Of a stretch of 29,278 bases of DNA, positions 6,279 through 28,365 are shown piece by piece. Source of the stretch: a virus; IMG/VR virus record IMGVR_UViG_3300042879_001403, positions 1-29,278 of that record; one strand, written 5' to 3'. Position numbers and translations under genes: made by a program. The notes below the pieces were generated by a model that ran no database searches, had not been told where the DNA came from, and worked only from the letters and a program-made list of their open reading frames with translations. Within the stretch, counting starts at the first letter, position 1. Each line of letters starts with the position of its first letter.

Positions 6279-8777
6279 TTACGGTTGCGGGTTGATACCA
6301 GTGCCGGTGGAGACTTCGAACTTCTCTCCGGCGGCGATCTCGGCAGCGGCCAACTGCTTGGCCGTCTCGTTGTCCGAGGTGTTCATAAATACGCGGGCCT
6401 CGATGTCGTCCGCGGTGCGAGCGTTTTGGCTCTGCTCGCGTAGCTGTACCAGCGATGCTTCTTGCTGCAGTTCGGCCTGCTTCATCTGCAGCTCGGCTTG
6501 CTTGACTTGAGCGTCTTGCTGGGCCTTCTGCTGCTCGAGTTGGAGCTTGGCTTGGTCGGCTTGCGCCTTCATCTGCATCGCCATCTGATCGACCTGCGCA
6601 CGGAGCTGCGCCACCGCCATCGAGTTATCCGGCGGCATTTGCGGCTGCATGTACTGATCGGCCATCTGCTTGACCTGCCCCATAACCTGAGGCAAGAATC
6701 CGAGTTGTTTTTCGACCACAGACTGAACCTGCATGATGAAGTCGGCTTCCTGCATCGATTCAGCCGGAATGATGCCTTCTTCCGTGATACCCTGCAGACC
6801 CTTGTGAGCCTCGACTAGGTAGTAGTTGAGCAGGTGATCGCGCAGGTGCCCGAGTATTGAGGGCATGTACGTAGGCGCTATTGCAGGGTTACTACCCAAC
6901 ACAGGCGACTGAAGGAAGGCAAGATGCACACGGAGGTGCGCGATGTGATCCTGTTTGGGCAGCACGTAGATCGGCTGACCCATCGACGCGGCGACGTTCT
7001 CAGACACTGGATCACGGTCGTCTTCTCCTACCTTGGGCGCGAGTACATCGTCCGGCACTTTGAGCGCCGTGATGAACATTTCCTCAATTTTGCGCAAATT
7101 GTACATTTGCGGCATCATTGCGGAGCGTTGAATGAGCGCCTGAATCTGAGCGAACCGTTGGGTCTCGCTGAAAATGTTAGGGTCAGAGACCGGAATGACG
7201 TCCATCGGGCCGTCAAAGTCTGATGGCTCCACTTCCATATCGCCCGACTGGAGCTCGATGAGGTCCTCGGTCAAGTAAGCGGAGTTGAGCCGGTGCAATA
7301 CTTTGAGCACGCGGGCCATCGAGTTGTGCAGCCGCGAATGAATCGAGCTGAACACCACCATTCCCTGTTCAATCAGCGCGAGCGTCGTGCCGACCGGCTG
7401 GTTGGGGTTTTGGTCGGAGAGTTTCTCAAACGACGTCTGCACCACACCCTTGCCGGCATCTACGAGGAAGCCGAGCAACTGGAACAATACGGGCGACGGC
7501 GGGTTGAACGGCACCGGCATCGCGATCTTGCGGACGTCGTCAACATTGACGCCGCCTTCAATATCAACGATCTCGGTCGGCATCAGGTTGATAGTCTGCC
7601 CGTTGGGGCCACCCTTCAACTTGAGCATCGTCGGAATGTTCTGAATATGCGCCGAGTCAAGCAGAGCGCGGAGCGCACCGGTGGCCGCCCCCGACAGACT
7701 GCCGATCATGTGCGTCAGGCCGATGGCATACGCACCGCGCCAAGGGACGAACGGGAACTCGATAACCCATTCAAGTTCGTTACGCACCGGGTCGTTAGGT
7801 TCCCAGTTACGGTACAGCGCGAGTCCTTTACCGGTCGTTTTGTCAATGGTGAGTAGGTAAGGTACGGTGCCCTCGCCAAAGTCGAGGAACGTGCACACCT
7901 CGTAAACGGTGCGCAATCCGTCCTCGTTGTAGTTCATCTCTTGGCGGCCTTCGATCTTGTCGTTGGCTTTGCTCGCTTTTGAGAAGTCTATTTCACCCGG
8001 CGACCCCAAATCGACGTCGCGGTACATACCGGCTTCAACCCGGCGCTGGTATTCAAACTTGGTGATGTACTGCACGTGCGTTTTGCGCTCGGCAGTGTAG
8101 AAGTTGGTCGCGGCGAACGGCAAGTAAATGTCGTCAACCGGAATGAACTCGCAGGTGGGGCGCTGGCGGCGCTTATCCCACGTGAATTTCAGGTATTGCG
8201 ACCCACCGAGCGGGAGCTGCGTTGACAACTGTTCGAGCTCACCCCGGAACTCCGGGATCTGCTCGGTCAACTGCCAATTCATATAGTCCGTCTTACGCTT
8301 CGCCTTGGTGAGCACGTCAGGATCAGCGTTACCGACGATCTTGCTGCGCACCGGCCCGTTAGGAGGCATCATCTCCTTCATCATACGGGCAGAAAAGTCT
8401 ACGCAGGCCTCAATGAGCATCGGGTGAACGACCTTGGAGGCACCCGTGAATTGCGCCCCGCCCGGTGCGTCATCGCCGAGTCCGGTGCGTCGGAGACCTT
8501 CCTCGTACACTTCGTCACGACGCTTGCGTGCGTCTTTGTCACGCGAGATCTTGTCCAGCAAATCCTCGATTACAATACCGAGCTCGCGCTGGTCGACTTC
8601 CTCAATGATGTTAGCAAAGTGTTCGCTTTGCTGAACGGCGTCCATCTCGTTCTCGAGTTTGACGATAGCGCCGCCGTCGTCGGTGTCAATCACCTCGGCG
8701 GGGGCGTCCATTTCAATCTCGACCATTTCGGCCTGCATTGCGACGGGTTCTTCAGCCGGGTTCATCGGGTCAGCCAT
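6279..8777 (-). CDS. Portal protein
   Basis: An 832-residue protein forming the dodecameric DNA entry channel at one capsid vertex. Features of large portal proteins are visible: GGAQFTGASKVVHPMLIEAC and FSARMMKEMMPPNGPVRSKI (about 105-145), the segment with LPLGGSQYLKFTWDKR and CEFIPVDDIYLPFAATN, a beta-rich clip/wing part, and a long alanine/glutamine-rich C-terminal coiled coil (about 700-800), which could be a barrel extension. Length is greater than most portals (about 500-700), like P22-type portals. The gene overlaps the PcfJ-like gene by 8 bases. ATG 8777 has a GAGAG site upstream. Confidence 0.85.
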   Translation of the reverse strand: MADPMNPAEEPVAMQAEMVEIEMDAPAEVIDTDDGGAIVKLENEMDAVQQSEHFANIIEEVDQRELGIVIEDLLDKISRDKDARKRRDEVYEEGLRRTGLGDDAPGGAQFTGASKVVHPMLIEACVDFSARMMKEMMPPNGPVRSKIVGNADPDVLTKAKRKTDYMNWQLTEQIPEFRGELEQLSTQLPLGGSQYLKFTWDKRRQRPTCEFIPVDDIYLPFAATNFYTAERKTHVQYITKFEYQRRVEAGMYRDVDLGSPGEIDFSKASKANDKIEGRQEMNYNEDGLRTVYEVCTFLDFGEGTVPYLLTIDKTTGKGLALYRNWEPNDPVRNELEWVIEFPFVPWRGAYAIGLTHMIGSLSGAATGALRALLDSAHIQNIPTMLKLKGGPNGQTINLMPTEIVDIEGGVNVDDVRKIAMPVPFNPPSPVLFQLLGFLVDAGKGVVQTSFEKLSDQNPNQPVGTTLALIEQGMVVFSSIHSRLHNSMARVLKVLHRLNSAYLTEDLIELQSGDMEVEPSDFDGPMDVIPVSDPNIFSETQRFAQIQALIQRSAMMPQMYNLRKIEEMFITALKVPDDVLAPKVGEDDRDPVSENVAASMGQPIYVLPKQDHIAHLRVHLAFLQSPVLGSNPAIAPTYMPSILGHLRDHLLNYYLVEAHKGLQGITEEGIIPAESMQEADFIMQVQSVVEKQLGFLPQVMGQVKQMADQYMQPQMPPDNSMAVAQLRAQVDQMAMQMKAQADQAKLQLEQQKAQQDAQVKQAELQMKQAELQQEASLVQLREQSQNARTADDIEARVFMNTSDNETAKQLAAAEIAAGEKFEVSTGTGINPQP

Positions 8778-11361
8778 TGAGTTTCTCTCTTACTCGGTTG
8801 ACGATCTCATCAACGACCGCCGGATTATAACCTACTTTGCCGCCTGCCGCCATTTTCACCGCGCCGCCATGAGCAAACTCGGGCGCAGGGAAACCCTGAG
8901 CGGTACCTTTGTCAAACCATTCTGACAACCGTTTGTGTTCATCTTCCGTTAAGAAGTAATCGCCCGCTTCGGAGCGTAACGCTGGTGGTTTGTTGCCGGT
9001 TCGCTTTAACGCAGCGATCATCATGTTATCCTTAGGTAACTTGACGAATCCGGTGTTCCTCTCATCTCCGGCAATTTCATATTTGCCCGACCGGATAAAG
9101 TCCTGCACGAGCGGGATGTCTTCCGGTTGAGGTTTCCGGTTATTAGCGCCTTTGACTTGGATGATCTGCATCGGCAGGTCGGGTAACACGTTACCCTCTT
9201 CGTCTACGAACCCCTGCTTGTATAATATCTCCATCTTGGCGTTGTCGTCAAGATCCGCGGTGTTTGGGTCGGTATCAATCTGCTGCTTGGCCTGTTCAAA
9301 CGTCATTTTCTGGTTAGAGTTAGGCTGCACTTCAATCGTCACCCGCGGACGACCATCGTAATCGCGCAGGCTGAAGATGCGACTGCGACCCTGCACGACG
9401 TCCTCGCAGTAACCGCCGACGCAATGTTGGAGCATTTCGCCTTCGTACTTGAGTGCGTCGGCGAGTGCTTTTTTGCGTTCTTCCCGCTTGTACAGGTTGC
9501 GCGCTTCTTCCGGTGTAGCGCCTGCGGAGACCGACTGCCCGGTCTTTTGGTCAATAATACCGTGCAAACTGGGATAACCGGATACAGGGCCGGGGCCGTG
9601 ACCGGGTTCAAATTCTGGCTCCGGCATCTTGAGCTCAACCCACTTGAGTCCCTGCTCGGGATACTCTTTCACGGGCACCGTAGCGATGTTACCAGCGCGG
9701 GCCGCGTTGACTTCGGTTGCGCGGGTGGCGCGGAACGCATTGATGTCGTCGACGAGTTTAGAAGCCTGAGCCATGTTGAGCATCTTCAACTTGTCTGGCG
9801 TGATCTTAAGCGCGTCGGGTAGGTCGCTTTCTGGGTCGAGCGCGTTGCGGAGCTCGTCACGCATGTGACCGAAGCCAAGGTCGTCAAACTGACCCCGATC
9901 AACCTGATACACCCGCGTTTCGGGCGGTACTTTGGTCAACCACGGGTTTTCTTCTATTTTAGCATTCAACTCTTTTGTAGAATACAATTGGGGATCGATC
10001 AGAACACGCGCTCTCGTAGGCCGGATTGACATGTCGGCCATGTTCTCCCAACCCTTACCCAGCGGCGTCTCGCCGATACCCTGAACCTCGTACCCCATTC
10101 GCTCCCGCATATCAGGGACACTTTCCGGCACCCACCGGTTAGCCAACTCGAGTTCTCGCGGATTGATGTGTGAGCCCGACTGCCTAGCGATATAGTCTCG
10201 CTCGCGACGTAACTCGCGCAACCGGGCTTGCGACCGGGTGAGCATCTCCGGCGTGAACCCGCGCTCGGCGCGAGCCTTTTCAAGATCCAGCATCGCTTTG
10301 TTAATCTGCTGGTCTTTTTGCTCAAGCAATTGCTTTTTCTTGACCGCGAACTGGTCAATCTGTTTACGAATCGGGTCGTCAGGTGACGCCATCTCGCTCT
10401 TGACGTACTTGGCGAGCTTTTGGTCGAGCCATGTATCAAGCGCCGCGTTGCGGGTTTCGCTTTCAATCTCTTGTTGTAGGCCGTACGCGGCATCGTTGTT
10501 ACGCGGATCGTCAAGATCTAATTTGTTTAGCTGCGCTCGGTAACTGTCGACGAGTTCTTGCGGAGTTTGCGGTTTAGGCAAAGCCAAATTGATCCACTGG
10601 TAGTATGCGTCGGGATCTGTTTCACGAGCAGAGTCAAGCCAAGCCGGGGTTATTAATGCAGGAAGCCGCTTAGGTGTCTTGATGTTACCCACCGTCTTTT
10701 CAACCGCACCGGCAGGCCAGTTGCCACCCTTGGGCTTGATGACTTGCGTAGTGGGAACGGTTTTGCCTACCCCGCGTGTGGGGTCGAGGAGCATCTCCGC
10801 GGTCAACTGCGCACCAAACTGCCCGGCAGACTCCGGGGTCGCGGCGGCCACCTTGGCGGGTAGCTGCTTGGCCGACTCCACCCCGCTCAACACCATGTCC
10901 CGCAACCCGGCAGGTAGCTGCTTGAGCAGCGCGATCTGCTCGGCGGGCTCTAACTGGTACAGGTACGTGTTGAGCGCGCTCAGCATGTCAACGTAACCGG
11001 TGGCGACGCCTTGGGCCGCACCCGGGAGTGACTTGAGGAACGAGCTGCCGAACCGAGCAAGACGGTCGTCGGGCCGTTGACCCGGCGCTCGATAGCCCGT
11101 GGCGCGGTCAGCCGGGAGCACCGGGCCGCCCTCAGCGTAACCCTCGGCTTCTTTGAGTATACGCATAAGCTCACCCCCGTCAAGGGTACGGAACATTTCG
11201 CGGGCCTTGGCCTCGCTACCGTACTTCTTGATGAGCGCTTTGAGTATGCGTGCGTTCAGTTGGTCGTAGCCGCCCTCGACCGCACCGCCCTCAGCCATAT
11301 TGCGGGCTTTGAACTCGCCCACGATACGCTCAACACGCTCGCGGTCGTAGCCGCTCACCAC
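8770..11361 (-). CDS. Large protein with PcfJ-like domain (probable polyvalent/injected protein)
   Basis: An 863-residue protein. Residues about 640-745 match the PcfJ-like domain: LQHCVGGYCEDVVQGRSRIF then SLRDYDGRPRVTIEV and later IIQVKGANNRKP. PcfJ-like domains occur in the large polyvalent proteins of phages and conjugative elements, which are thought to enter the recipient cell with the DNA. The rest is mostly helical and charged, with no protease or polymerase motif that I can recognise. Short AEGGAV/AEGGPV/AHGGAV motifs appear near both ends. It sits between terminase and portal. GTG 11361 and GTG 11358 are both possible starts; the latter makes a GTGA overlap with the upstream stop. 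An ejection-protein role is inference. Confidence 0.75.
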   Translation of the reverse strand: MVSGYDRERVERIVGEFKARNMAEGGAVEGGYDQLNARILKALIKKYGSEAKAREMFRTLDGGELMRILKEAEGYAEGGPVLPADRATGYRAPGQRPDDRLARFGSSFLKSLPGAAQGVATGYVDMLSALNTYLYQLEPAEQIALLKQLPAGLRDMVLSGVESAKQLPAKVAAATPESAGQFGAQLTAEMLLDPTRGVGKTVPTTQVIKPKGGNWPAGAVEKTVGNIKTPKRLPALITPAWLDSARETDPDAYYQWINLALPKPQTPQELVDSYRAQLNKLDLDDPRNNDAAYGLQQEIESETRNAALDTWLDQKLAKYVKSEMASPDDPIRKQIDQFAVKKKQLLEQKDQQINKAMLDLEKARAERGFTPEMLTRSQARLRELRRERDYIARQSGSHINPRELELANRWVPESVPDMRERMGYEVQGIGETPLGKGWENMADMSIRPTRARVLIDPQLYSTKELNAKIEENPWLTKVPPETRVYQVDRGQFDDLGFGHMRDELRNALDPESDLPDALKITPDKLKMLNMAQASKLVDDINAFRATRATEVNAARAGNIATVPVKEYPEQGLKWVELKMPEPEFEPGHGPGPVSGYPSLHGIIDQKTGQSVSAGATPEEARNLYKREERKKALADALKYEGEMLQHCVGGYCEDVVQGRSRIFSLRDYDGRPRVTIEVQPNSNQKMTFEQAKQQIDTDPNTADLDDNAKMEILYKQGFVDEEGNVLPDLPMQIIQVKGANNRKPQPEDIPLVQDFIRSGKYEIAGDERNTGFVKLPKDNMMIAALKRTGNKPPALRSEAGDYFLTEDEHKRLSEWFDKGTAQGFPAPEFAHGGAVKMAAGGKVGYNPAVVDEIVNRVREKLNG

Positions 11362-14110: not shown

Positions 14111-14608
14111 TTACGCCTCGGTGGGAGATGTGGAGGCTTTAGCGAGTAGACGCTGCATGTTCTCTAACTCCTCGTCCGACAGGTTCTTCATGTCGATCGC
14201 CGCCAGTGCGATGGGGCCGCCCCCCGCGCCGGTGTGTTCGTTTGTGACGCGGTCGCCGTAGTCCCGCGGTGCGATAGCCTTGGCGCGCCACCGGTAATGG
14301 TGCGCGAGCTCTCGTGCCTTCTCTAACGCGAACCGGTCGGGGGCTGACGCAATCACCTCCTCCGCTTTCTGATCCCAGAGACGGGCCGAGAGGACGCGAG
14401 CGGCTCGTGCGCGTGCGGAGCGTTGAGGATCTTCCTCAATCCACCAGATCAGAGTAGACACATCCACGCCGACTCGAGCAGCGATACCACGCAGGCTGTC
14501 GCCGCCGACAATGTCCGAGCAGATAGCATCGATGCTGTACGCAGTGAGCTTGTTCTGCGCAACGGGCGGGGGGCCGGGCTTCTTACGAGCAGGGGTGGGA
14601 GTATTCAT
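14111..14608 (-). CDS. terS: Terminase small subunit (HTH DNA-recognition)
   Basis: A 165-residue protein from ATG 14608 (a TTG nine bases earlier is possible). After a proline/lysine-rich N-terminus, residues 30-65 form a helix-turn-helix: DAICSDIVGGDSLRGIAARV and GVDVSTLIWWIEED. The central part contains helices with EKARELAHHYRWRAKAIAPR, typical of small terminases of this kind, and the C-terminus has a short acidic helix. It recognises viral DNA and guides the large subunit. It begins the late operon, right beside the iteron-like array, which might include its target. Confidence 0.8.
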   Translation of the reverse strand: MNTPTPARKKPGPPPVAQNKLTAYSIDAICSDIVGGDSLRGIAARVGVDVSTLIWWIEEDPQRSARARAARVLSARLWDQKAEEVIASAPDRFALEKARELAHHYRWRAKAIAPRDYGDRVTNEHTGAGGGPIALAAIDMKNLSDEELENMQRLLAKASTSPTEA

Positions 14609-14616
14609 AGCAGGCA

Positions 14617-14645
14617 ATTATAACCTCATTGCGTCGAGCAGCCAA
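14617..14645 (-). promoter_or_regulatory. Late-operon promoter ahead of the terminase genes
   Basis: On the minus strand TTGGCT (14645-14640), a 17-base spacer and TATAAT (14622-14617). The -10 box ends only 8 bases before the small-terminase ATG at 14608, so transcripts would begin at or next to the ATG. The nearby TTGATCGTTCG repeat lies just upstream of the -35. Confidence 0.55.
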
Positions 14646-14651
14646 AGTGAT

Positions 14652-14992
14652 TGATCGTTCGTCTCTTCGAGAGGGGTATCCGAACGATCAAACCGAACGA
14701 TTACCCTCGCCCTATAAAACACAGTACTTTCCGCTCCGCTGCCAAAAAGTGAGAAAATTCCCGAACGATTACTCCGAACGATTACCCACACGATTGGGTG
14801 TAGAACGGACGTAAGTCGTTGTTTTTAGTGAATCGTGTGATCGTTCGACCCATCACTCTGATCGTACTCCGGAGGAGGGCCGACTGGCCCCCTCCTCCGA
14901 CGATCGAGCGCTTCAGATTGTGCTCCCGGGTAATCGTTCGGTCGGCCCAATCGTTCGAACGATTACCCCGAACGATTAAAACCGAACGATTA
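14652..14992 (+). repeat. Iteron-like array of CGAACGATYA motifs (non-coding island)
   Basis: Between the stop of the 75-residue gene and the terminase small subunit no convincing gene exists. Instead there are eleven copies of the 10-mer CGAACGAT(T/C)A or its reverse complement. Plus orientation: 14681, 14694, 14762, 14775, 14956, 14969 and 14983. Minus orientation: 14652, 14838, 14931 and 14948 (the last with C in place of T at the outer base). Pairs are 13 bases apart (14681/14694, 14762/14775, 14956/14969) and the copies at 14948 and 14956 meet head to head as the palindrome AATCGTTCGAACGATT (14949-14964). Candidate origin, pac site or operator. Confidence 0.85.
14870..14899. other. Strong GC-rich stem-loop inside the repeat island
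   Basis: CGGAGGAGGG (14870-14879) pairs with CCCTCCTCCG (14890-14899), a perfect 10-bp stem with a 10-base loop that itself contains a short CC/GG pair. No T-run follows on either strand. It lies in the centre of the motif array. It may be an origin structure or a terminator lacking a U-tract. Confidence 0.65.
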
Positions 14993-15217
14993 CTTTTCAT
15001 CCGCTGCCCCACCCATCGGGCGGTAGGTCAGTAAGTATTGAACTTGTGAGCGCAGAGCCTCAATCTCGCGGGCCAGCTCGTTGGCCTCTTGGGTCAACCC
15101 CGCCGCCCTCACCCGCGCCAAGAGCTCATGCGTACTCGGCAGCGGTTTGAACCGCCAAGGGGCCGCTCTAATCTCATCAGCCCATGACCCCGGTGGGGAC
15201 TCTCTGTCAATGGTCAT
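14990..15217 (-). CDS. Small helical protein, unknown function (last gene of early minus operon)
   Basis: A 75-residue protein from ATG 15217, which overlaps the stop of the TPR-glycosyltransferase gene (ATGA). Residues 1-30 are polar with W residues. From about 28 on it is helical, with STHELLARVRAAGLTQEANE and LAREIEALRSQVQYLLTYR forming a probable coiled coil. Its stop codon TAA lies inside one copy of the 10-bp repeat. No family is recognised. Confidence 0.6.
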   Translation of the reverse strand: MTIDRESPPGSWADEIRAAPWRFKPLPSTHELLARVRAAGLTQEANELAREIEALRSQVQYLLTYRPMGGAADEK

Positions 15218-16557
15218 ACGAACCTCCGCTCTAACTCCGCTTTAACTCTCTGCACCACATTGTCCCAAGGCGCCATCACGTGGTCACGCGGGTACACTGT
15301 CAGGCTCGGATACCACAGGCTCTGATCACCCGACTTGTTACCCCAATACCACAGCTTATTGGCATCCATCAAGAGTACCGGGCGGCCGAGCGCCCCGGCA
15401 AGGTGGACTGTTGAGCTGCTCACGCTCACCACCACATCACACAACTCGAGCAACGCGGCGAGCGCCTCAAAGTCGTCGCGGCAGTTAACCCGTGGGTTCA
15501 TGATGCGCGGGTCTACGGTTTCGGTTGCGCTCTGAACATATTGCAAGTTGACAAACCGACAAGGTAAGTCCAGCAGCGGCTTCAGAGTCTCCAACGCGAT
15601 GCTTTTGTGTGGTCCTATTTTGATCGCGGCGCTCGTCCAACTCAACCCGACCAACGGCGGGCCTGCTGGCAGCCGCGCCCGCAGAGCGGCTACCCGCTCG
15701 GGGTCGGCTTTGATATAGTTCCGGCTAGCGGCTAGCGGAATGTCATCAAGCGACTTGACAAACTGCGCCCCAATCGAGGCGATAGGCAGGTGCGAGTCAT
15801 GGTCGCCTGCTTCCACCTCCGACGTGTTAGGTAGGAAGTCAATCGTCGGCATCGACCGGCTGAACAACGAGATCAACCGCGGGTCGACGAGCATCGTCAC
15901 TTTGTCAACCTCGTACCGCAACCGGTTGAGCATACTAGCGTAAAAGATCTGGTCGCCGATACCCTGCTCACCCCACACGAGCACTCTGCGGAGTCCACTG
16001 TCGGGTGACCATTGGGGTTTAGTAGTCACCAGCGGCCTAGATTTGAACCGCGCCGACCGCCACCGAGCATCATACCGTGACCAACCCGTATCAAACTTAC
16101 CCACCTGTAACTCAAGCAAACCATTCACCCAAATTGTTTCCGGTTCGTTGGGGGCTAGTTTGAGCGCTTTTTCAAAATCAGCCTTGGCCTTAGCCCAGTC
16201 GCGCATCTCCCAGTAAGACCCGCCGCGCCTGAGGTACAACTCTGCGTTGTCGGGGTTGATTAATTCAGCCACCTCGAGGTCCCGTATCACCCCCAAGTAA
16301 TCTGACATTTCGTTGCGAGCCGCAGATCTACCGTAGTGTCCATCAAAACTAGGGGGGCCGTTGTTGATGTAAGCGGTGAACCAACGCTCGGCTTTTTTAT
16401 GCATTTTAAGCGCGTGGTAAATGGAGGCTTTTGCCCGGTACAACCCTCGGTCCTCGGGACTATGAACCAAAGCGTATTCCGTTAGCGCCAAGGCTTTTTT
16501 GAACTCTTTAACAGCAAACAGCCGGTCGATTTCTCTGTGTAAATTCAAATTTATCAT
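15214..16557 (-). CDS. TPR protein with GT9-like glycosyltransferase domain
   Basis: A 447-residue protein. Residues about 15-160 carry TPR-type helices (GLYRAKASIYHALKMHKKAE, ELYLRRGGSYWEMRDWAKAK and ADFEKALKLAPNEPE). The linker GWSRYDARWRSARF leads to a GT-B-type domain: RVLVWGEQGIGDQIFYASML (191-210), LVGLSWTSAAIKIGPHKS (302-319) and DVVVSVSSSTVHLAGALGRP (374-393), like family GT9 heptosyltransferase-related sequences fused to TPRs. The acceptor is unknown: host surface sugar, virion protein or modified DNA. Start overlaps the methyltransferase stop (ATGA). Confidence 0.75.
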   Translation of the reverse strand: MINLNLHREIDRLFAVKEFKKALALTEYALVHSPEDRGLYRAKASIYHALKMHKKAERWFTAYINNGPPSFDGHYGRSAARNEMSDYLGVIRDLEVAELINPDNAELYLRRGGSYWEMRDWAKAKADFEKALKLAPNEPETIWVNGLLELQVGKFDTGWSRYDARWRSARFKSRPLVTTKPQWSPDSGLRRVLVWGEQGIGDQIFYASMLNRLRYEVDKVTMLVDPRLISLFSRSMPTIDFLPNTSEVEAGDHDSHLPIASIGAQFVKSLDDIPLAASRNYIKADPERVAALRARLPAGPPLVGLSWTSAAIKIGPHKSIALETLKPLLDLPCRFVNLQYVQSATETVDPRIMNPRVNCRDDFEALAALLELCDVVVSVSSSTVHLAGALGRPVLLMDANKLWYWGNKSGDQSLWYPSLTVYPRDHVMAPWDNVVQRVKAELERRFV

Positions 16558-17213
16558 TGGCGCACCAACCGGATCATGTCGTTAGGCAGCAACACCGCTG
16601 TGTTGCAGCACCCCGCTAAGTTATGTTCCCGCAGCAGTTCCCGCTCCGGTGGGTAAATAACCTGATACCCCGGTTCAATTCCATGCAGGTTGAACAAGTT
16701 GGCCACCCCTTTCTCGTTACCCTCGAAGTCATCCAGTACGAAAACGCGAGTAAAAGGTAACACTTGCAGGTCGTGATCGTTCAACCGACCGTCAATGTGC
16801 AGCAGGTCGATTGACTTCTCCTGCGCCTTTATGGCAGTGAACATTTCAACCGAGGACTTCTTGGGGTATTGCACTACCCGGGAACCCAGCGCCAAGTCAA
16901 TGTCGTTTGACAGGTCACAGGTGTGTAGCACTGCGTCCGGCGCGCCGCGGTGGAGCGCAACCGTACTGCGGCCGATGAACGTACCGACCTCGGCGATCAA
17001 CTCAGGTCGCAAGTAACGCGCCAACGAGTACAACGCCCATCCCGCCGCCAGCGAGATGCTGCCCGTATTGTAATCAGCATGCTCCCGGTGACGTTCAAGT
17101 TCGTCAAACTCGGCCATCAACCGGGGTCGAGCAGATGAATCCGCACTGTGCTCTAACACGGTTGCCCAAAAGAGTCGGCTTAAGTGCCGACGGTTTATAC
17201 GTAGCGTTTCCAT
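16554..17213 (-). CDS. SAM-dependent methyltransferase (Methyltransf_24-like)
   Basis: A 219-residue class I methyltransferase. Motif I is AEVGTFIGRSTVAL (74-87), the acidic ribose-binding end is HTCDLSND (D100), and the strand DLLHIDGRLNDHD (136-148) followed by RVFVLDDFEGNEKG (156-169) resembles Methyltransf_24 proteins, with D161-D162 and D141 as candidate metal or substrate residues. These enzymes often methylate sugars or polyketide-like acceptors and occur with glycosyltransferases. Here the upstream and downstream genes are glycosyltransferases, suggesting sugar methylation in the same pathway. Substrate is inference. Confidence 0.75.
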   Translation of the reverse strand: METLRINRRHLSRLFWATVLEHSADSSARPRLMAEFDELERHREHADYNTGSISLAAGWALYSLARYLRPELIAEVGTFIGRSTVALHRGAPDAVLHTCDLSNDIDLALGSRVVQYPKKSSVEMFTAIKAQEKSIDLLHIDGRLNDHDLQVLPFTRVFVLDDFEGNEKGVANLFNLHGIEPGYQVIYPPERELLREHNLAGCCNTAVLLPNDMIRLVRQ

Positions 17214-17863
17214 TCTGCTGCATACTCCACGTTTTGATAGTTATCAAGCCAAGGCCCACCCCGAGTAAAGTGCACCGCCGCGGGGTCGGCGCAGTCTTCC
17301 TGCGTGTGCCAACCCTCAAGGTAGTTCCACTCCACCGGCAACTCACCGATCACGTCATCAGTAAGCCATTTGAACTGATGCAAGTAAAGCGCAGTTTGCG
17401 TGTTCACGTCATACGGCATCAACCGTTTAACCTGCTCGTGACCGCAGTTGATCAACATCAGGCTCGACCAGTTTTTACGGTCGTATTGATGCTGCACTCG
17501 GTTGTCCATTTTATGCGTGTCTTTGGGTTTGTAGTCGTGCTTAACGCACATCACCGCGTACCGGTCATCACACAGTTTGAACAAGTCAGCGATGTCACGA
17601 CGGAACAAAAAGTCACAATCACAAAACAACGCCCACCCCCGGTACTCCTGCAAGTGTGGTACAAGGAACCGTGTGAGCGAAAACTCCGTTGACGCCAACG
17701 GGTCGGCCGAACGCCAATAGTGCCCTTGCTCACGGAGCCAAGGCTGCTGTAACGGGTAAATGTTAATCAGTGCGTTCGTGTGCCTAAACATCGAGTCCTT
17801 AGCGACGCGGAACGCTTCCTGCTCGCGCGAGTCCCAACCTACGTAAATATCAAGCGGCCACAT
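17195..17863 (-). CDS. GT-A family glycosyltransferase (small)
   Basis: A 222-residue protein from ATG 17863 (GGAG nine bases away; this start overlaps the upstream stop by 14 bases; a longer frame to 17890 lies inside that gene). It opens MWPLDIYVGWDSREQEAFRV, has STEFSLTRFLVPHL (58-71) and the metal-binding DxD motif in WALFCDCDFLFRRDI (77-91, D82 and D84), matching small nucleotide-sugar transferases. The C-terminus contains HFTRGGPWLDNY. It transfers a sugar to an unknown acceptor. It overlaps the methyltransferase start by 19 bases. Confidence 0.75.
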   Translation of the reverse strand: MWPLDIYVGWDSREQEAFRVAKDSMFRHTNALINIYPLQQPWLREQGHYWRSADPLASTEFSLTRFLVPHLQEYRGWALFCDCDFLFRRDIADLFKLCDDRYAVMCVKHDYKPKDTHKMDNRVQHQYDRKNWSSLMLINCGHEQVKRLMPYDVNTQTALYLHQFKWLTDDVIGELPVEWNYLEGWHTQEDCADPAAVHFTRGGPWLDNYQNVEYAAEWKRYV

Positions 17864-18812
17864 TCTTACGCGCTCCCTTGTAATGTACAATCAAAGGCGA
17901 ACTGTTACCGATGTATTCAGGTAAACAGGCGATCACCGCCTCCTCGATCAAATTGAACTCGCTCGCTTTGAGCGTATTCACAAACTCACGCAATGCTTCT
18001 TGATCCCCGTACCAACGATGATACTTTTCATCAAGAACCCGGCACCGATCGTATAATGGTAACAAGTCCGCACTGGTGCGCGCTGCAATAAAACAACTTA
18101 CATAAGGGAATACCAACCCTATAGGACGGTCGGCGTGTTCGGTGAAGTCGAGCCCACGTTGTTGCCCGTTGAACGGCACCATGCGGTCAAATGAACGGTT
18201 ACAAAATGCGTACTTTTTGTCACCGAGGATGGCGAGCAAGTTAACGAACCCCCGCACGACCATGTCTGTATCAAGGTAAATGGCGGGCTCTTGCAAGTCG
18301 AGCTGCGTATAAGCGCGCAACCGCTCGGACATAATGCGGTCAGGGTTGATGTCAAACTCACGCCGCTCTACGCCTTGTAGCCCCGGAGTGACTTTGTCCG
18401 TGAGCATGATGATCCGCGCACCGGGATTAGTTTTTTCAAGTGAGTCAATCAACCGGGCAGGCTGCGTAGTGTCCTCACCAATATGAAAAAACACAAACGT
18501 CGCAGCGGGAGGTGTTAAAGTTTTGGTTGGGTCATACAAAAGAACGCCCGCGGCGTCATTGCTACCATCAGCAAAGTTACTGATAAGCGTGTTTACCCGC
18601 TGTAGTGTTTCTTTCCGAGTCACCACTAACAACTTACAAGTCGTCATCACTTGATCGCGAGCGCCGTTTTCACCCGCATTGTCAAATTGTTGAGCTTGCT
18701 GCTCGACAAAAGTCCAGTCTAAAAATTCAAGATCACCGGCATCGCTTAAACGACACCATGTTTGTTCTGCTTGCTCAACGACGTCTCGTTTGATGTATTC
18801 TTTCTCGCTCAT
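17850..18812 (-). CDS. Glycosyltransferase with DxD motif and extra N-terminal domain
   Basis: A 320-residue protein. Residues about 105-315 look like a GT-A domain: TFVFFHIGEDTTQPARLIDS, LRAYTQLDLQEPAIYLDTDM (DTD 181-183), then a Y/G/D-rich region with YGDQEALREFV and a C-terminal VHYKGARKN, like GT8-type and related enzymes in which such residues bind UDP-sugar and metal. The first ~100 residues are a separate, mostly helical part that I cannot assign. Start overlaps the preceding stop as ATGA. It probably acts with the neighbouring glycosyltransferases. Confidence 0.7.
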   Translation of the reverse strand: MSEKEYIKRDVVEQAEQTWCRLSDAGDLEFLDWTFVEQQAQQFDNAGENGARDQVMTTCKLLVVTRKETLQRVNTLISNFADGSNDAAGVLLYDPTKTLTPPAATFVFFHIGEDTTQPARLIDSLEKTNPGARIIMLTDKVTPGLQGVERREFDINPDRIMSERLRAYTQLDLQEPAIYLDTDMVVRGFVNLLAILGDKKYAFCNRSFDRMVPFNGQQRGLDFTEHADRPIGLVFPYVSCFIAARTSADLLPLYDRCRVLDEKYHRWYGDQEALREFVNTLKASEFNLIEEAVIACLPEYIGNSSPLIVHYKGARKNVAA

Positions 18813-19360
18813 TTGAACTCCACGCTATAGGTTCGTGAGGGGGAACGCCACCGCGGTAGCGGGGACGGCTGATTGATCCAACTCGGGTCTTCCCAAATTA
18901 GTTTATTATTCGGGTACGCAACCCACTGCCCGCTGCCGAGCGCGATGATGTGGTGATTTTTGTGTTGGTCAGGTATCTCAGACCAACCGCCGTGCGACCA
19001 GTCGACCGTGAACAAGTAGTTACCCTTGCGTAGTTGGCCGTCGCGTCCGTAACACTTCACCGCGTGGTTGCGCAGAAAGGTGAACTCGTGCACCGTGCAG
19101 TGACGACTAAAAGAGTCCCACCAACACGACAACTCAAGCGGTAGCGGGTCGCAAGGTTTTGAGCAAAGCATATGCACCGGCACTCGCGCCCACTGCGCAC
19201 CGTTCTCGAGCATGACCTGAAACATCGGCACTCGCCCCGGCTCTGCGCGGAAGCCGAACACGGTACACAGCGTGAACTGACCGTGACCTTCTTGCTCATC
19301 AAACAGGAACTCATTCCGCACATACGCAGTGACGTAAGGTGTATCAACTAAAAAGCTCAT
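18809..19360 (-). CDS. Conserved-looking unknown protein in the sugar cassette
   Basis: A 183-residue soluble protein rich in aromatic residues, histidine and cysteine, for example YVTAYVRNEFLFDEQEGHGQ, FTLCTVFGFRAEPGRVPMFQ, MLCSKPCDPLPLELSCWWDS and DWSHGGWSEIPDQHKNHHII. The pattern suggests a conserved beta-rich protein in which Cys and His might bind metal, but I recognise no family. It is encoded immediately before the glycosyltransferases and overlaps the next start by ATGA. It is a candidate accessory of the sugar cassette or a DNA-module protein. Confidence 0.6.
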   Translation of the reverse strand: MSFLVDTPYVTAYVRNEFLFDEQEGHGQFTLCTVFGFRAEPGRVPMFQVMLENGAQWARVPVHMLCSKPCDPLPLELSCWWDSFSRHCTVHEFTFLRNHAVKCYGRDGQLRKGNYLFTVDWSHGGWSEIPDQHKNHHIIALGSGQWVAYPNNKLIWEDPSWINQPSPLPRWRSPSRTYSVEFK

Positions 19361-19906: not shown

Positions 19907-22009
19907 TTATACTCCGTATTTAGTTTGTTCATGTGCTTTAACGACGTCTTCGTCTACGGTCAAATAGTGATTCGCGCGTCCTTGCGGCTTGTCCAACTCA
20001 ACCCGTACTACCAGCCCATCGGCTAGCAGCGTGGTCAGAACTCGCTCTTTACGGTCTTGCGCAGCTTTTACGCCACCTTGCGCTACGGGGAGTCGCTCGT
20101 AATATGAGCGCGACTTGTTAGGATGATTCCGTATCAAGTCCAGCATGTTGGCCGCTAACTGCTCCCATGCTTTATTCTCTTTCTGCTCTTTGATGTCTTC
20201 CTTCAACTGGGCGCGCTCACCCGGTGCGAGCGGTCGCGCTACCGAGTGACTGAACCAGATAGTTGAATCATAGCCGAGCACATCCTTGTGCTGCTCACGG
20301 TTGCTCACTAGGTCGAATGTCAACTCTGAGAACTTAGTTGGGAACCTGACTTTGACCGCTTTAAGCACCCGCGGCGCGTCTTCCATGTCGCCGTCTTTGA
20401 AAACCGTATAAACCCCTTGCGCGTCACCTGTCCATGCTGACGCACCGCGGGGACTCAAATACTCCGACTCCCCTTGCCCGAGCATTTTAGCCGTATGGCT
20501 GACGATAATAACAGGGAACGCGGAAAAGGCCTGCTTTATGTAGGCCATCGCGCGCCCGACCTCGGCATTGTCGTTTTCATTCTCAAGGTCAAACACCGCG
20601 TTCGCAGTGTCAAAAAGCACGAGCGGGAGTGCCTTGAATACATCACCGTCGGCGCGCTGGTTGTCCACCGTCCAAGAACGGTATTCATCCGCGACTTGCG
20701 CAACGATTTTAGGATCCAGACGTTGGGCGGCGATCACCCGCACCCGCTCGTCAAAGTCGCCAGCTGCAGCCCCAGTATAACCCCAAGTGAACAGCGAGTA
20801 AATGACGCGCTGTACCTGCACCACAGACTCCGTGATGATGATCACGTTGCGACGTACTTGCGGCTTGAGCGGGTAATCATACGGGCACAAGTGCGCAGTG
20901 GCTAGCGCCATTGGCACAATGAGCGTTGTTTTACCTACACCCGGAGCACCCGCGACGACGTTCACGCCGGTTGACATAAAGTCGTCGTAAATATATTCAA
21001 ATACGGTTACGTGGCTCGCGCCGGAACCTGTTGAGCGCACCAGCGACAGCGGGTGAGGCTCGTTAGGGTTCGCCGCGGGGTCAGGCGCTTTCACATTACC
21101 CGACCAACCGTTATCCATCGCCATCCGGAAGATTGACCGGTACGTTATGCTGTGCGGGTGATCAAGATCCCGCTCCCACTTGCGTCGTTGGGCCGCGGCA
21201 TCAAACTTGTCCGAGCGCGATGACCACTCAGTCCATATTTTATAGCCATTCTCGCCGTAAGGTTTGAGCACCATACCCACGTTAACCCACGTGGTATAGT
21301 CATCAGCATCTACGTAGTTGAGTGCCGAGCGGAGGTCGTCAAAGGTTTGCGCTGTGGCTACCGGCACCCCGCCGCGCTCGGTGAGGCTATAACTCGCCGG
21401 TGTGCGCGCTTTACTCGCGATTAATTGCGGGAGCGGGGAAGGTTGCGCAGGGCGCGATTGACTGAGCGGTGAGCGGCCCGACTCCCACCGGTACGCACCG
21501 GACGGCCCGAGCGTAGGCGCAACGCAAATATAACCATGATGCTTTAAGTCCAGTCCCGCCCCGAGCGAGGCCGGGTACGTGAGCGCCGCATCCGCGGTAA
21601 AGAGGCGGTGCTCGCCGCCCCCTTGCGTAACCGCCACGCAGTCACTATGCAATACGCCGTGTTCGGCCTCCAGCGCGCTCAGGGACTCTCGCCCGCCGTT
21701 CTGCGGGTCAATGTCTAAAGCGAGCAGCCCGGAGTCAGCAAGGCTGATACCGATACCCGCCTCGGGGTCAGTCGCCCACCAGTCTCTGATTTGCTGTTCG
21801 TCAAGCGTAGAGTCGTTATGACCGTGCGGTACAAGGTTACTTTGCGGGTGTTTACCCGGCTTGTGACCCTTCTCGTTGTTCGGTCGCCCGCAGCGACACT
21901 GCCCGTGCTGATCAACCGACCACACGGGCAACACGGCCCAACCCAATTTAGCATACGCCAGAGCGTAATCTAATACGCTCGGAGCGGGTCGGCTATCAAC
22001 CGACCACAT
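19907..22009 (-). CDS. Prim-pol primase/helicase fusion
   Basis: A ~700-residue protein (ATG 22009; GTG 22033 or TTG 22042 could extend it). N-terminal prim-pol domain, about 14-195: LAYAKLGWAVLPVW, the catalytic acidic motif LLALDIDPQNGG (95-106) and GGGEHRLF (131-138). A PriCT-2-like helical domain follows (223-300, DDLRSALNYVDADDYTTWV and YGENGYKIWTEWSSRSDKFD). The C-terminal RepA-like/RecA-fold ATPase has Walker A GAPGVGKTT (354-362), Walker B-like LPLVLFDTANA, and a sensor-like VIIVSHTAKM. It primes and probably unwinds DNA at the fork. Acts with the helicase encoded just upstream. Confidence 0.85.
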   Translation of the reverse strand: MWSVDSRPAPSVLDYALAYAKLGWAVLPVWSVDQHGQCRCGRPNNEKGHKPGKHPQSNLVPHGHNDSTLDEQQIRDWWATDPEAGIGISLADSGLLALDIDPQNGGRESLSALEAEHGVLHSDCVAVTQGGGEHRLFTADAALTYPASLGAGLDLKHHGYICVAPTLGPSGAYRWESGRSPLSQSRPAQPSPLPQLIASKARTPASYSLTERGGVPVATAQTFDDLRSALNYVDADDYTTWVNVGMVLKPYGENGYKIWTEWSSRSDKFDAAAQRRKWERDLDHPHSITYRSIFRMAMDNGWSGNVKAPDPAANPNEPHPLSLVRSTGSGASHVTVFEYIYDDFMSTGVNVVAGAPGVGKTTLIVPMALATAHLCPYDYPLKPQVRRNVIIITESVVQVQRVIYSLFTWGYTGAAAGDFDERVRVIAAQRLDPKIVAQVADEYRSWTVDNQRADGDVFKALPLVLFDTANAVFDLENENDNAEVGRAMAYIKQAFSAFPVIIVSHTAKMLGQGESEYLSPRGASAWTGDAQGVYTVFKDGDMEDAPRVLKAVKVRFPTKFSELTFDLVSNREQHKDVLGYDSTIWFSHSVARPLAPGERAQLKEDIKEQKENKAWEQLAANMLDLIRNHPNKSRSYYERLPVAQGGVKAAQDRKERVLTTLLADGLVVRVELDKPQGRANHYLTVDEDVVKAHEQTKYGV

Positions 22010-22013
22010 GTGT

Positions 22014-23558
22014 TTAGGCGGCTTGCTCGGCACTTCCCTCAACCCCCGTAAAATGCTCCGCGACTACATTCCAATACTTGCCCGCCTTACGCACTTGTAA
22101 TTGCTTAGGTACGCGGGCAGCTCGGACAGCCCAAGCCACGGATTGTGCGGGTGCTGGTATCTTAACGGCCAGCCCGCGCTGTTTAAAGAACTGATAGTCC
22201 TGCTCACGCGGCACTACGGTGTTTACGAACAGCGTCGCATCAATGCGAGCATTCTCGGCCGTAGTGCATGCGTACTGAACCATCAGGATATAATTGTTCG
22301 GGTCGCGCTTGGTTTTTATAGCCACCGCGCTCACCGCGTGTACGTCAACCGTGAGTGCCGTACCGTTGCCCGCAGCCAACCCGGTCATCGGGTCGATCGG
22401 GGTGAGCTTACGCACCCCCGGCAAGTATTTACGCTCCCGCTTAACGTGCGGTCGGAGCGGTTTGGCCTCGACTTCCTCAAGGCTGTCCTCGCGGTAGTAC
22501 CGCTCGTACATGTCAACCCCGCCTAACCGGATGAGGTTGCCTACGTAGTCGAGCACGAGGCAGTTTTTCTTGTTGTTAGCGAGCCGTGTACCGCGACCCT
22601 GAATCTGAACCCACAGCGAGGAGGACAGCGTCGGGCGCAAGCAGACAATACAGTCTAGCGACGGTAAGTCGAACCCGGTGGTGAGCGTGTCAATGGATAC
22701 GAGCACCCGCGTCTCACGCTCCGCAAAACGCCGGAGGATGGCTTTACGGGCCTCGGGAGCCATCGCCCCGGTGATCAACTCGGCTCGCCAGCCGGTCTCC
22801 TCGAGGATTGCTGACAGCGCACGGTTAGCTGCTACTACTGTCGGGCAGTACACGGCGATATGTTTACGCTCACCCGCTAAATGCGGGAGCGACCGGGCGA
22901 CCGACTCGAGCCACTCCTGCGTTTGCAGCTCGCCGACTTCTTCTTGATTGAAGTCGTCGTCTACGTCTACCTCATCCACGTCCAACTGGATCGCGGTCTC
23001 AACCCCGACGAGCGGAGTGAGCCAACCGTCCGCGACCGCCTGCTTGACCGGATAGTTGAACGCGAGGTCATCAAACCAGAAGCTCTCGCCGTCGCCGTAA
23101 ATGATACCGTTGTCCATACGCCACGGAGTCGCGGTCATCGCTATACGCTTGGCTCGCGGGTAACGGCGCAATATTGAGTCATACATTGAGTGTTCACCCC
23201 GGCGATGCGGTACGCGGTGAGCCTCGTCAATGATAATCAAGTCGGGCTCGGGCAGCTCGGCCAACACCCCTTTAATGCTCTGAATGGTCGCAAAAATGAC
23301 TTCAGCCCGAGTGTCCTTACGCTTGAGCCCCGCACAGATGATACCCGGCGCGCTGCCCGTGAACCGCTCGTAGGTCTTGGCGTTTTGCTCAACTAACTGC
23401 TGGATGTGCGTCAACACCCACGTGCGGGGTTGCGCGAGTGCGGCTATGATGAGCGACTTACCGGTACCGGTAGCGAGCTGTAATACGGGGTTACGTCCAG
23501 CCGCAAGCGACGAGCGTGCCGCCGACACCGCGTCTTGCTGGTAACGTCTCAGTTGCAT
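22014..23558 (-). CDS. SF2 DEAH-box helicase
   Basis: A 514-residue helicase. Motif I ATGTGKS (29-35), motif II DEAH (111-114), motif III TAT (142-144), and motif VI QIQGRGTRL (318-326) are all visible, as in SSL2/UvsW-type phage helicases. Residues 390-514 are a C-terminal extension that may bind DNA or a partner. It unwinds branched or duplex DNA during replication, repair or origin opening. First gene of the minus-strand early operon, with GGAG eight bases before ATG 23558 and a divergent promoter region upstream. Confidence 0.9.
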   Translation of the reverse strand: MQLRRYQQDAVSAARSSLAAGRNPVLQLATGTGKSLIIAALAQPRTWVLTHIQQLVEQNAKTYERFTGSAPGIICAGLKRKDTRAEVIFATIQSIKGVLAELPEPDLIIIDEAHRVPHRRGEHSMYDSILRRYPRAKRIAMTATPWRMDNGIIYGDGESFWFDDLAFNYPVKQAVADGWLTPLVGVETAIQLDVDEVDVDDDFNQEEVGELQTQEWLESVARSLPHLAGERKHIAVYCPTVVAANRALSAILEETGWRAELITGAMAPEARKAILRRFAERETRVLVSIDTLTTGFDLPSLDCIVCLRPTLSSSLWVQIQGRGTRLANNKKNCLVLDYVGNLIRLGGVDMYERYYREDSLEEVEAKPLRPHVKRERKYLPGVRKLTPIDPMTGLAAGNGTALTVDVHAVSAVAIKTKRDPNNYILMVQYACTTAENARIDATLFVNTVVPREQDYQFFKQRGLAVKIPAPAQSVAWAVRAARVPKQLQVRKAGKYWNVVAEHFTGVEGSAEQAA

Positions 23559-26473: not shown

Positions 26474-26886
26474 TAAATGAGCTGATCAATCTTCACATTA
26501 TGCAAGGTAAAGAGCTGGTCGACCTATACAACCGGTACAGCTCTAACAAGGTGTTGCGGTTTAGCGACCGGGCTACGGCTATAAAGCGATGCACGCAGGT
26601 GCTCACTGAGGCCGCACTGCGCCAGCCCGAAGTCATCAAAGACCGACCGAACATGAAGGACTCGCTCAAACTTGACCGCGCTATTCAGTGTTTTGAAAAC
26701 GGTAAGCGCATTGACATATGGGCTAACGCTCACCAGATGTGGAAGGATCGCCCCGACCTGCTCACTAGCAGCCAGCAAGACCGCCTGACCAAGCAGTTGT
26801 ACTCGGCTGCCAAGCAAGGCGTCCGGCTCGTCGTAACGATAAACGATCGGCAGTTTTCACTTGTTAACGTCGCAGGAGTGAATTGA
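26470..26886 (+). CDS. Conserved early protein, possible DNA-binding
   Basis: A 138-residue protein starting MINELINLHIMQGKELVDLY (an inner ATG at 26500 is possible). The block MQGKELVDLYNRY, then KVLRFSDRATAIKRC, resembles the K-x-L-V-x-LYN ... K-F-x-DRATA helical repeat seen in some phage and bacterial proteins. The rest is helical. Start overlaps the previous stop (ATGA). No proven function. Confidence 0.55.
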   Translation: MINELINLHIMQGKELVDLYNRYSSNKVLRFSDRATAIKRCTQVLTEAALRQPEVIKDRPNMKDSLKLDRAIQCFENGKRIDIWANAHQMWKDRPDLLTSSQQDRLTKQLYSAAKQGVRLVVTINDRQFSLVNVAGVN

Positions 26887-27845
26887 TGAACACCGTATTC
26901 CCGCAGTTGACTCTTGACCGTGAACAGGTACACTGGGAAGACTACTTAGGCACACTCACCCCGTGGGAAAACCGCGGCGGTATTCACTTCAAGCGCGATG
27001 ACTATTTTGCCCCGCTCGGTTATGGCGGCCCCAACGGTAGCAAAATGCGCCAACTCATTTGGTACATCAACCGTTACCGGCCCGGTAAGAACCATATTGT
27101 CACCGGTGCGAGCATTCAGTCGCCGCAGCTTAGCATGAGTGCGATCGTCGGGCAGCACTACGGGTTACAAGCCCGGCAGGTGGTTTATAGCAAGCCAGAA
27201 ACCGTGCTCAAACATGAGAATCCGCGCATCGCCGCGGGGTTCGGTGCGGTGTTTGAATACGCTAGCGGCCCGTACAACCCGATCATTCAGAACAAAGTCG
27301 TTAACCTGACCAAGCCTAACTCGCTCGTAGTTGAGTATGGCATCACGCTTCCGCACGACCGCTACCCGGCTGACGATGTGCGCAAGTTTCACGAGGTCGG
27401 CGCGCACCAAGTGAGCAACATGCCCGAGCAGGTTGAGACGCTCATCGCCCCGGCGGGTTCGTGCAACTCGCTGTGTAGCATACTGCTCGGCCTAAGCCGC
27501 GACCCTAAAAACGTCAAGCGGTTGTTCACTATCGGTATCGGTCCAGAAAAGCGCGATTGGGTCGAGGAGCGTATGGGTCTCATGGGTGTTGATACTAATT
27601 GGCTACCGTTCAAGTGGGAACACCACAGCCTACACACGACCAAGTTCGCCAAGTACAGCGACAAGTTCACCGGCGAGAACTTTGAAGGCATTACGTTTCA
27701 CCCGACCTACGAGGCCAAAATGTGGCGGTGGCTCCGGCAGAACCCGAACGCGCTGCCGCGCAACGATACCGTAGGCTTTTGGATCGTAGGCTCGGCCCCA
27801 AGCACTAAAGTGATTGAACCGTTTTTCACCCGGAGGTTGTCATGA
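26886..27845 (+). CDS. Fold-type-II PLP-dependent enzyme (ACC deaminase/D-cysteine desulfhydrase-like), probable DNA-base tailoring enzyme
   Basis: A 319-residue protein from ATG 26886 (AGGAG seven bases away; TGATG overlap). It shows the ACC deaminase/D-cysteine desulfhydrase pattern: FKRDDY (35-40), GGPNGSKMRQL with probable PLP lysine K53, IVTGASIQSPQLSMSAIVGQ (71-90) for substrate binding, the phosphate-binding-loop analogue in PAGSCNSLCSILLGL (from 189), and a late HPTYEAKM. Its neighbour at 28362 is an aGPT-PPlase-like protein, a pair expected for thymidine hypermodification, where PLP enzymes alter the attached amino acid. A free amino-acid role is also possible. Confidence 0.8.
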   Translation: MNTVFPQLTLDREQVHWEDYLGTLTPWENRGGIHFKRDDYFAPLGYGGPNGSKMRQLIWYINRYRPGKNHIVTGASIQSPQLSMSAIVGQHYGLQARQVVYSKPETVLKHENPRIAAGFGAVFEYASGPYNPIIQNKVVNLTKPNSLVVEYGITLPHDRYPADDVRKFHEVGAHQVSNMPEQVETLIAPAGSCNSLCSILLGLSRDPKNVKRLFTIGIGPEKRDWVEERMGLMGVDTNWLPFKWEHHSLHTTKFAKYSDKFTGENFEGITFHPTYEAKMWRWLRQNPNALPRNDTVGFWIVGSAPSTKVIEPFFTRRLS

Positions 27846-28054
27846 GCGACAAACTGCTACAGTATGAAAAGCTGCTTAAAGCACACGATTGGTACTACGA
27901 TTATTCAGATGATCACCGCGTATGGCGTAAAGGTTCAGACGAGTTTGACGCTCTGCGTAAACTCCGTAACGAACTGAAAGAAGAGTTTGATGTCAGGGTG
28001 CTTGACCAAATATGGAACAAGTACTCTCCGTTCTCAAAAGAGACGCAGTCATGA
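27842..28054 (+). CDS. Small protein between the two modification genes
   Basis: A 70-residue protein, MSDKLLQYEKLLKAHDWYYD then YSDDHRVWRKGSDEFDALRK and LRNELKEEFDVRVLDQIWNK. It is helical and charged with aromatic residues in the middle. The start overlaps the PLP gene stop (ATGA), and the stop overlaps the next start (ATGA). Similar small proteins occur in phages. Function unknown. Confidence 0.65.
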   Translation: MSDKLLQYEKLLKAHDWYYDYSDDHRVWRKGSDEFDALRKLRNELKEEFDVRVLDQIWNKYSPFSKETQS

Positions 28055-28365
28055 CCCGCGACGACATGAAAGATTGGGTCAAACAACTATGCCCAGAGAT
28101 TGCAGGCTGGCAGGCTGATTTGATTGTTGAACAGGTTGATCTTGCTGTTGCAGCCGAGCGGGAGAAGGTAGCCGCGTGGATGATTGAGCGAGGCTATGCC
28201 ACCGGCCACGGCGATACCATTGAAAATTTGCTTAAGGAGCTGGAGTGGCAAGTCAAGGAGCGAGAGTTGAAAGTATGCGCAGAGGAGTGTGAAGACTCGC
28301 TTTACTGTGCCGCCGTCACCCGTTCTCGCGGTAACACCGGAATCAAGTGGGAGATCGAACCGTGA
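28051..28365 (+). CDS. Small helical protein, unknown function
   Basis: A 104-residue protein from ATG 28051 (overlapping the previous stop); an upstream ATG at 28012 would add residues inside the previous gene. It reads MTRDDMKDWVKQLCPEIAGW, then a long helix (ADLIVEQVDLAVAAEREKVA) and an end with CAEECEDSLYCAAVTRSRGN. Stop overlaps the next GTG (GTGA). No family is recognised. Confidence 0.6.
   Translation: MTRDDMKDWVKQLCPEIAGWQADLIVEQVDLAVAAEREKVAAWMIERGYATGHGDTIENLLKELEWQVKERELKVCAEECEDSLYCAAVTRSRGNTGIKWEIEP

Follow-up and report, generated by a model that had tools for sequence, protein, structure and literature searches.

The window analysed here, a 29,278-nt stretch of DNA from the viral IMG/VR record IMGVR_UViG_3300042879_001403, contains an array of short iterons at 14652–14992, located in a gap bounded by the gene for the terminase small subunit (terS) and a 75-aa ORF (14990–15217, minus strand) that is 86–88% conserved among close relatives. 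The first-pass annotation had described eleven copies of CGAACGATYA in both orientations within 341 bases. Ten of these were found to be exact, at 14652 (−), 14681, 14694, 14762, 14775, 14838 (−), 14931 (−), 14956, 14969 and 14983, while the eleventh (CGAACGATTG, 14948–14957, −) carries a single mismatch. Since dinucleotide shuffling yielded on average 0.15 and at most one exact match per whole window, the iteron array is confirmed as real and far above chance. The rest of the window held no exact copy, in agreement with the annotation, and the five sites with up to one mismatch beyond the array are to be compared with 4.28 expected for the whole window.

Starting from the terS side, the exact iteron CGAACGATCA (14652–14661, −) adjoins the terS promoter, and beyond it lies a small palindrome, CTCTTCGAGAG (14663–14673), which is flanked by two inverted iterons and has TCTATATAGA in its place in many relatives. 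Two tandem pairs of exact iterons follow (14681–14703 and 14762–14784, both +), and single exact minus-strand copies are found at 14838–14847 (CGAACGATCA) and 14931–14940 (CGAACGATTA). At 14948–14965, two overlapping inverted iterons, one of them with the mismatch, form the palindrome AATCGTTCGAACGATT (14949–14964), after which two more exact direct iterons (14969–14992, +) complete the array, the last one sharing three bases with the 3' end of the 75-aa ORF. The three 13-base-spaced pairs noted earlier could be placed at 14681/14694, 14762/14775 and 14956/14969, and the 16-base palindrome is the one just described; the spacing of 14969/14983 is 14 bases.

Two further elements had been overlooked in the first-pass annotation. 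Within the array, a strong 46-nt hairpin is predicted at 14860–14905, with an outer stem GATCG/CGATC, an asymmetric internal loop and an 11-bp GC-rich inner stem. Next to the array, a sigma-70-like promoter recognised by sequence match, TTGGCT-17-TATAAT (14617–14645, −), precedes terS (phrog_1482), the longest ORF of which spans 14111–14617 (−) with a likely ATG start at 14608. Here and in most relatives the −10 box lies only a few bases ahead of the ATG, and the terS mRNA may therefore be leaderless.

On the other side, approximately 4.9 kb of other genes separate the array from a proposed initiator gene (19907–22042, −). Its product, hereafter PrimPol, joins primase, ATPase and a C-terminal winged helix in one protein, with Pfam matches to Prim-Pol, PriCT_2 and an AAA_25 ATPase and with the winged helix (19949–20167, −; residues ~625–697) assigned by structure prediction and fold comparison. 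The ATPase part matched AAA_25, and the Pfam search of PrimPol returned no SF3 family. A partner helicase of the ResIII/DEAD type, identified by domain matches, is encoded next to it (22014–23558, −). Between PrimPol and the array lie five accessory genes (15214–19360, −), some with TPR/glycosyltransferase- or methyltransferase-like matches, and relatives carry different genes or none at this place. At the far end of the window, an open ORF (26883–29276, +) matches an amino acid:DNA transferase (PF18724) and, judged by this match, is the start of a thymidine hypermodification cluster, to which thymidylate-synthase-like and kinase-like genes are added in complete relatives.

Dozens of IMG/VR relatives carry the same array, and the paired form of the motif was found in 46 IMG/VR DNA stretches, nearly all of them upstream of terS. 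In relatives of 50–59 kb, represented by complete or long records, the repeats are clustered at one genome position as in the window, with the motif copies confined to a single cluster of approximately 200–330 bp upstream of terS, except that G005 has one stray copy and G009 a reduced set. Five records (G002, G003, G004, G007 and G037) were assembled as circles, as their short identical ends show. Many copies scattered across the genome, which the first-pass annotation had named as a finding that would speak against a dedicated site, were thus not observed in complete relatives. The 43 distinct arrays follow a common plan, in which the hairpin stands between iterons with the overlapping palindrome and a further group of direct iterons; towards terS, an inverted pair surrounds the small palindrome, followed in 37 of the arrays by a terS promoter-like sequence (0.7 expected). 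In seven genomes, cumulative GC skew, a check proposed with the original description, was lowest at 2.6–6.8 kb from the array; this is mildly supportive of a nearby origin but confounded by the direction of transcription. Among annotated phages, Roseobacter phage CRP-901, Paracoccus phage Pkon1, Pseudomonas phage YuA and MW202455 showed no such array upstream of terS.

The hairpin was followed across relatives by an automatic search in which the iterons were masked, since an unmasked search picks up the iterons themselves. An alignment of 18 hand-chosen hairpins, two of which (L163 and L163b) are one hairpin trimmed differently, displayed compensatory changes in 11 of the 12 predicted stem-loop pairs. 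In the outer stem, 69 of 76 pairs were kept across 13 different arms, compared to 22.6 after re-dealing the arms, a count in which L176, whose anchoring is off, is scored as a mismatch. The retained pairing together with the compensatory changes indicates that the structure of the stem-loop is conserved, while its sequence is not. A known RNA family at the hairpin was considered and rejected, the sole match being a chance miRNA.

The array-bearing phages have in common PrimPol, a PolA-type polymerase and genes for recombination and modification, and most of them also have the partner helicase. The same motif is present in G010 and G012, which have a different structural module (TerL ~42%), and it is missing in phages with the same structural module that lack a close homologue of the window PrimPol. 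The array thus goes together with the replication module, also in phages whose structural module has been swapped. In the L100 type, which has another replication module, the array (CCCGAGAT) begins directly after a DUF5906 gene.

Within PrimPol, the domain proposed to read the iterons is the winged helix. Its AlphaFold model reached a pLDDT of ~90 over the domain, while the full-length PrimPol model, at 66, was of low confidence, and only the domain model was therefore used. The nearest solved folds include MecI and MarR; a sequence search yielded no significant relatives of the winged helix in the PDB. Residues varying with the motif, R650 and Q662 in the window protein, are positioned at the end of helix 2 and at the start of the recognition helix 3, respectively.

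A search for PrimPol relatives returned 79 loci, and residues were compared with motifs where array and PrimPol lie on one record. In linked loci with the standard motif TRATCGTTCG and without a stand-alone winged helix, helix 2 always ends with YER or FER, and helix 3 begins with S/A-Q-E/D-R-K/R-E/Q-R or -EL. Where the motif departs from this form, the residues usually do so as well: L284 combines TAATCGTGT with SDER, L269 and G037 combine CGAAWGCCCG with SKERKLQ, L339 and L340 combine TRATCAAGT with YEQL, and L323 combines CCTAAATAAG with LEQV and GKEKKMR. In L343, the PrimPol N-terminus is retained, the C-terminal half is foreign and the motif, CGCCGGGT, is unrelated. A replacement of Arg by Gln accompanying a change from ATCG to ATCA would fit common protein–DNA contacts. 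Such non-standard classes are few, and CGAATGCGCG and CGAGCGATCA are tied to their PrimPol only through the same metagenome. In L326 and L328, the motif differs and yet R and Q are kept at the key positions, with changes just after them.

Over 29 non-redundant loci, a Mantel-type test gave a correlation between motif distance and winged-helix distance of r = 0.67, and of r = 0.66 for the rest of PrimPol. The partial correlation with the winged helix was 0.34 given the rest of PrimPol (p = 0.012) and 0.72 given TerS. The repeat sequence thus appears to change together with the winged helix of the initiator, though this domain is not cleanly separated statistically, because the rest of PrimPol is nearly as well correlated. 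Early genes of the phages with the motifs GAAAGCCCG and GAATGCGCG were also considered as readers and rejected; the shared ones close to the array mostly reach an identity of ~90% or higher between the two motif types, and so do not switch with the motif.

The most probable reading, in our view, is a replication origin composed of iterons and a stem-loop, with the PrimPol winged helix as its reader, and the origin is also the best supported of the three functions proposed in the first-pass annotation, as the motif tracks this C-terminal domain. Binding, melting, priming and origin activity would proceed as follows. The C-terminal winged helix of the PrimPol-helicase would bind the CGAACGATYA iterons, many PrimPol copies would assemble on the array, and the ATPase would open the DNA. 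This would expose single strands at the stem-loop or close to it, on which the primase could start, and the PolA-type polymerase and other phage replication proteins would extend the primers. The same iteron binding may also regulate the abutting terS promoter. In several loci the first iteron starts 1–24 bp past the PrimPol stop codon, which speaks for the origin, and in others the two are 1–11 kb apart. Against the origin stand the incomplete statistical separation of the winged helix, the small number of non-standard motif classes, the exceptions L326 and L328, the result that the pRN1 PrimPol did not bind its origin specifically (PMC4234260), and the position of the array, which lies closer to terS than to PrimPol.

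A further point against it comes from phages that encode stand-alone paralogues of the PrimPol winged helix. One or two such copies lie between the array and terS in L012 (2607–2822), L014 (5513–5968), L017 (5759–5974), L275 (909–1121), L285, L307 (5138–5341) and L315 (15654–16127). In most of these phages the array has shifted from TRATCGTTCG while PrimPol keeps its usual residues, so that in several of them the motif has changed without a change in the PrimPol winged helix. This suggests that in some relatives the array was handed over to the stand-alone protein.

The same binding might also govern the late promoter, since the array abuts the conserved terS promoter, and such control constitutes the main rival to the origin. 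On this view the array would be mainly an operator, at which bound PrimPol or stand-alone winged helix would repress or activate transcription from the terS promoter and so set the timing of the late operon, with the hairpin acting as an RNA element or a transcription barrier. The location directly upstream of the sigma-70-like promoter in 37 of 43 arrays fits such a role, as do the distances: the array is a short distance from terS in every linked locus, while its separation from PrimPol varies between 1 bp and 11 kb (~11 kb in L269). In L012, L014, L017 and L275, moreover, the gene for the stand-alone winged helix follows the array directly. Eleven sites in 340 bp around a covarying stem-loop are, however, more than an operator usually needs, the last site lies 160–300 bp from terS in L343 and the G037 type, and the best-matching reader is a domain of a replication enzyme. 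The late-operator function suggested in the first-pass annotation therefore keeps its support from the promoter but ranks behind the origin, and we consider it improbable, if worth retaining, as the main role of the array.

A scheme combining the two functions is somewhat easier to entertain, although still speculative. One fold could serve as a replication-to-packaging switch, in which the array-bound PrimPol winged helix starts replication and holds the terS promoter, a stand-alone copy having taken over the array in some lineages. The lineages would then expose a natural recognition code, in which, for example, Gln in place of Arg at the helix 2 end accompanies ATCA in place of ATCG.

The first-pass annotation had also proposed that the array is a packaging site (pac or cos) recognised by the TerS encoded next door, and the array does always adjoin terS, near which the packaging site is located in several phages. 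This proposal is contradicted by the independent assortment of motif and TerS type, by which TerS was likewise rejected as the motif reader. On a conserved scaffold, L255, L259 and L260 carry GAAAGCCCG, while L256, L257 and L258 carry GAATGCGCG; L255 and L256 nevertheless have near-identical TerS with these unrelated motifs, and one further TerS type is common to L257 and L258 on the one hand and L260 on the other. Conversely, TRATCGTTCG occurs beside TerS of unrelated N-termini. Motif distance correlated poorly with TerS (r = 0.18) and TerL (r = 0.03), and the partial correlation with TerS was −0.13 once the winged helix was accounted for. A packaging site is thus very unlikely, and closeness to terS proves a poor guide to one. 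Least probable of all is that the array serves in partition, as an immunity operator or as the target of a host protein. Oppositely oriented repeats whose motif switches do resemble centromere and repressor systems, but the replication regions examined showed no partition gene, the motif follows the phage replication module, and 257 billion bases of bacterial genomes contained six matches to the paired motif, single pairs or nearly so and approximately at chance level, by which arrays in host genomes were rejected.

The candidate origin would operate in the manner of P4 alpha, SaPI Rep and Cch2, and pRN1, and shares features with several known systems. As in P4 alpha, primase, helicase and a C-terminal winged helix are found in one polypeptide, and the P4 winged helix reads origin repeats (PMC4234260); P4 alpha, however, has a Toprim primase, while the protein described here is a PrimPol of the archaeo-eukaryotic kind that carries PriCT_2 and an AAA_25 ATPase, and a covarying stem-loop lies among its proposed iterons. 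The pRN1 protein ORF904 likewise combines Prim-Pol, helicase and a C-terminal winged helix, and its stem-loop origin, downstream of the gene, is conserved in structure and not in sequence (PMC4234260). In the strict sense the array is not of the pRN1 type, as pRN1 has an SF3 helicase, a stem-loop of ~100 nt and no iterons, in contrast to the AAA_25-type ATPase, the 46-nt hairpin and the many iterons described here. Short iterons read by the C-terminal domain of the initiator are also known from SaPI Rep and SCCmec Cch2, where they lie downstream of the initiator gene (PMC7581432), though those systems use separate helicase and primase proteins of other families and belong to satellites or chromosomal cassettes, not to a phage. 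In RSF1010, where RepA, RepB' and RepC act with oriV, iterons and hairpins are used by a dedicated primase (PMC4234260); there the three proteins are separate, while here their activities appear fused into one.

These findings bear on how PrimPol-type replicons recognise their origins and on what the C-terminal winged helix does there; for pRN1, specific binding of the PrimPol to its origin could not be shown (PMC4234260). In the present lineage, winged helices and iterons are naturally paired many times over, some pairs differing by only a few residues and one by a swap of the whole domain, which makes recognition directly testable. The lineage also defines a candidate iteron-plus-stem-loop origin for widespread uncultivated phages whose DNA appears to be hypermodified.

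Some minor observations concern individual records. The window also encodes an 863-aa head-region protein with a PcfJ-like match (8770–11361, −). Three to five motif cores were found on small contigs, one from Bradyrhizobium campsiandrae (L246) and one, at its end, from a Myxococcales MAG (L250), which are possibly phage contigs within bacterial assemblies. Finally, the 101,830-base record G010 (L172, L222 and L224) contains two arrays 57.6 kb apart, a pattern that could reflect more than a single genome length, or two related phages, within one record.
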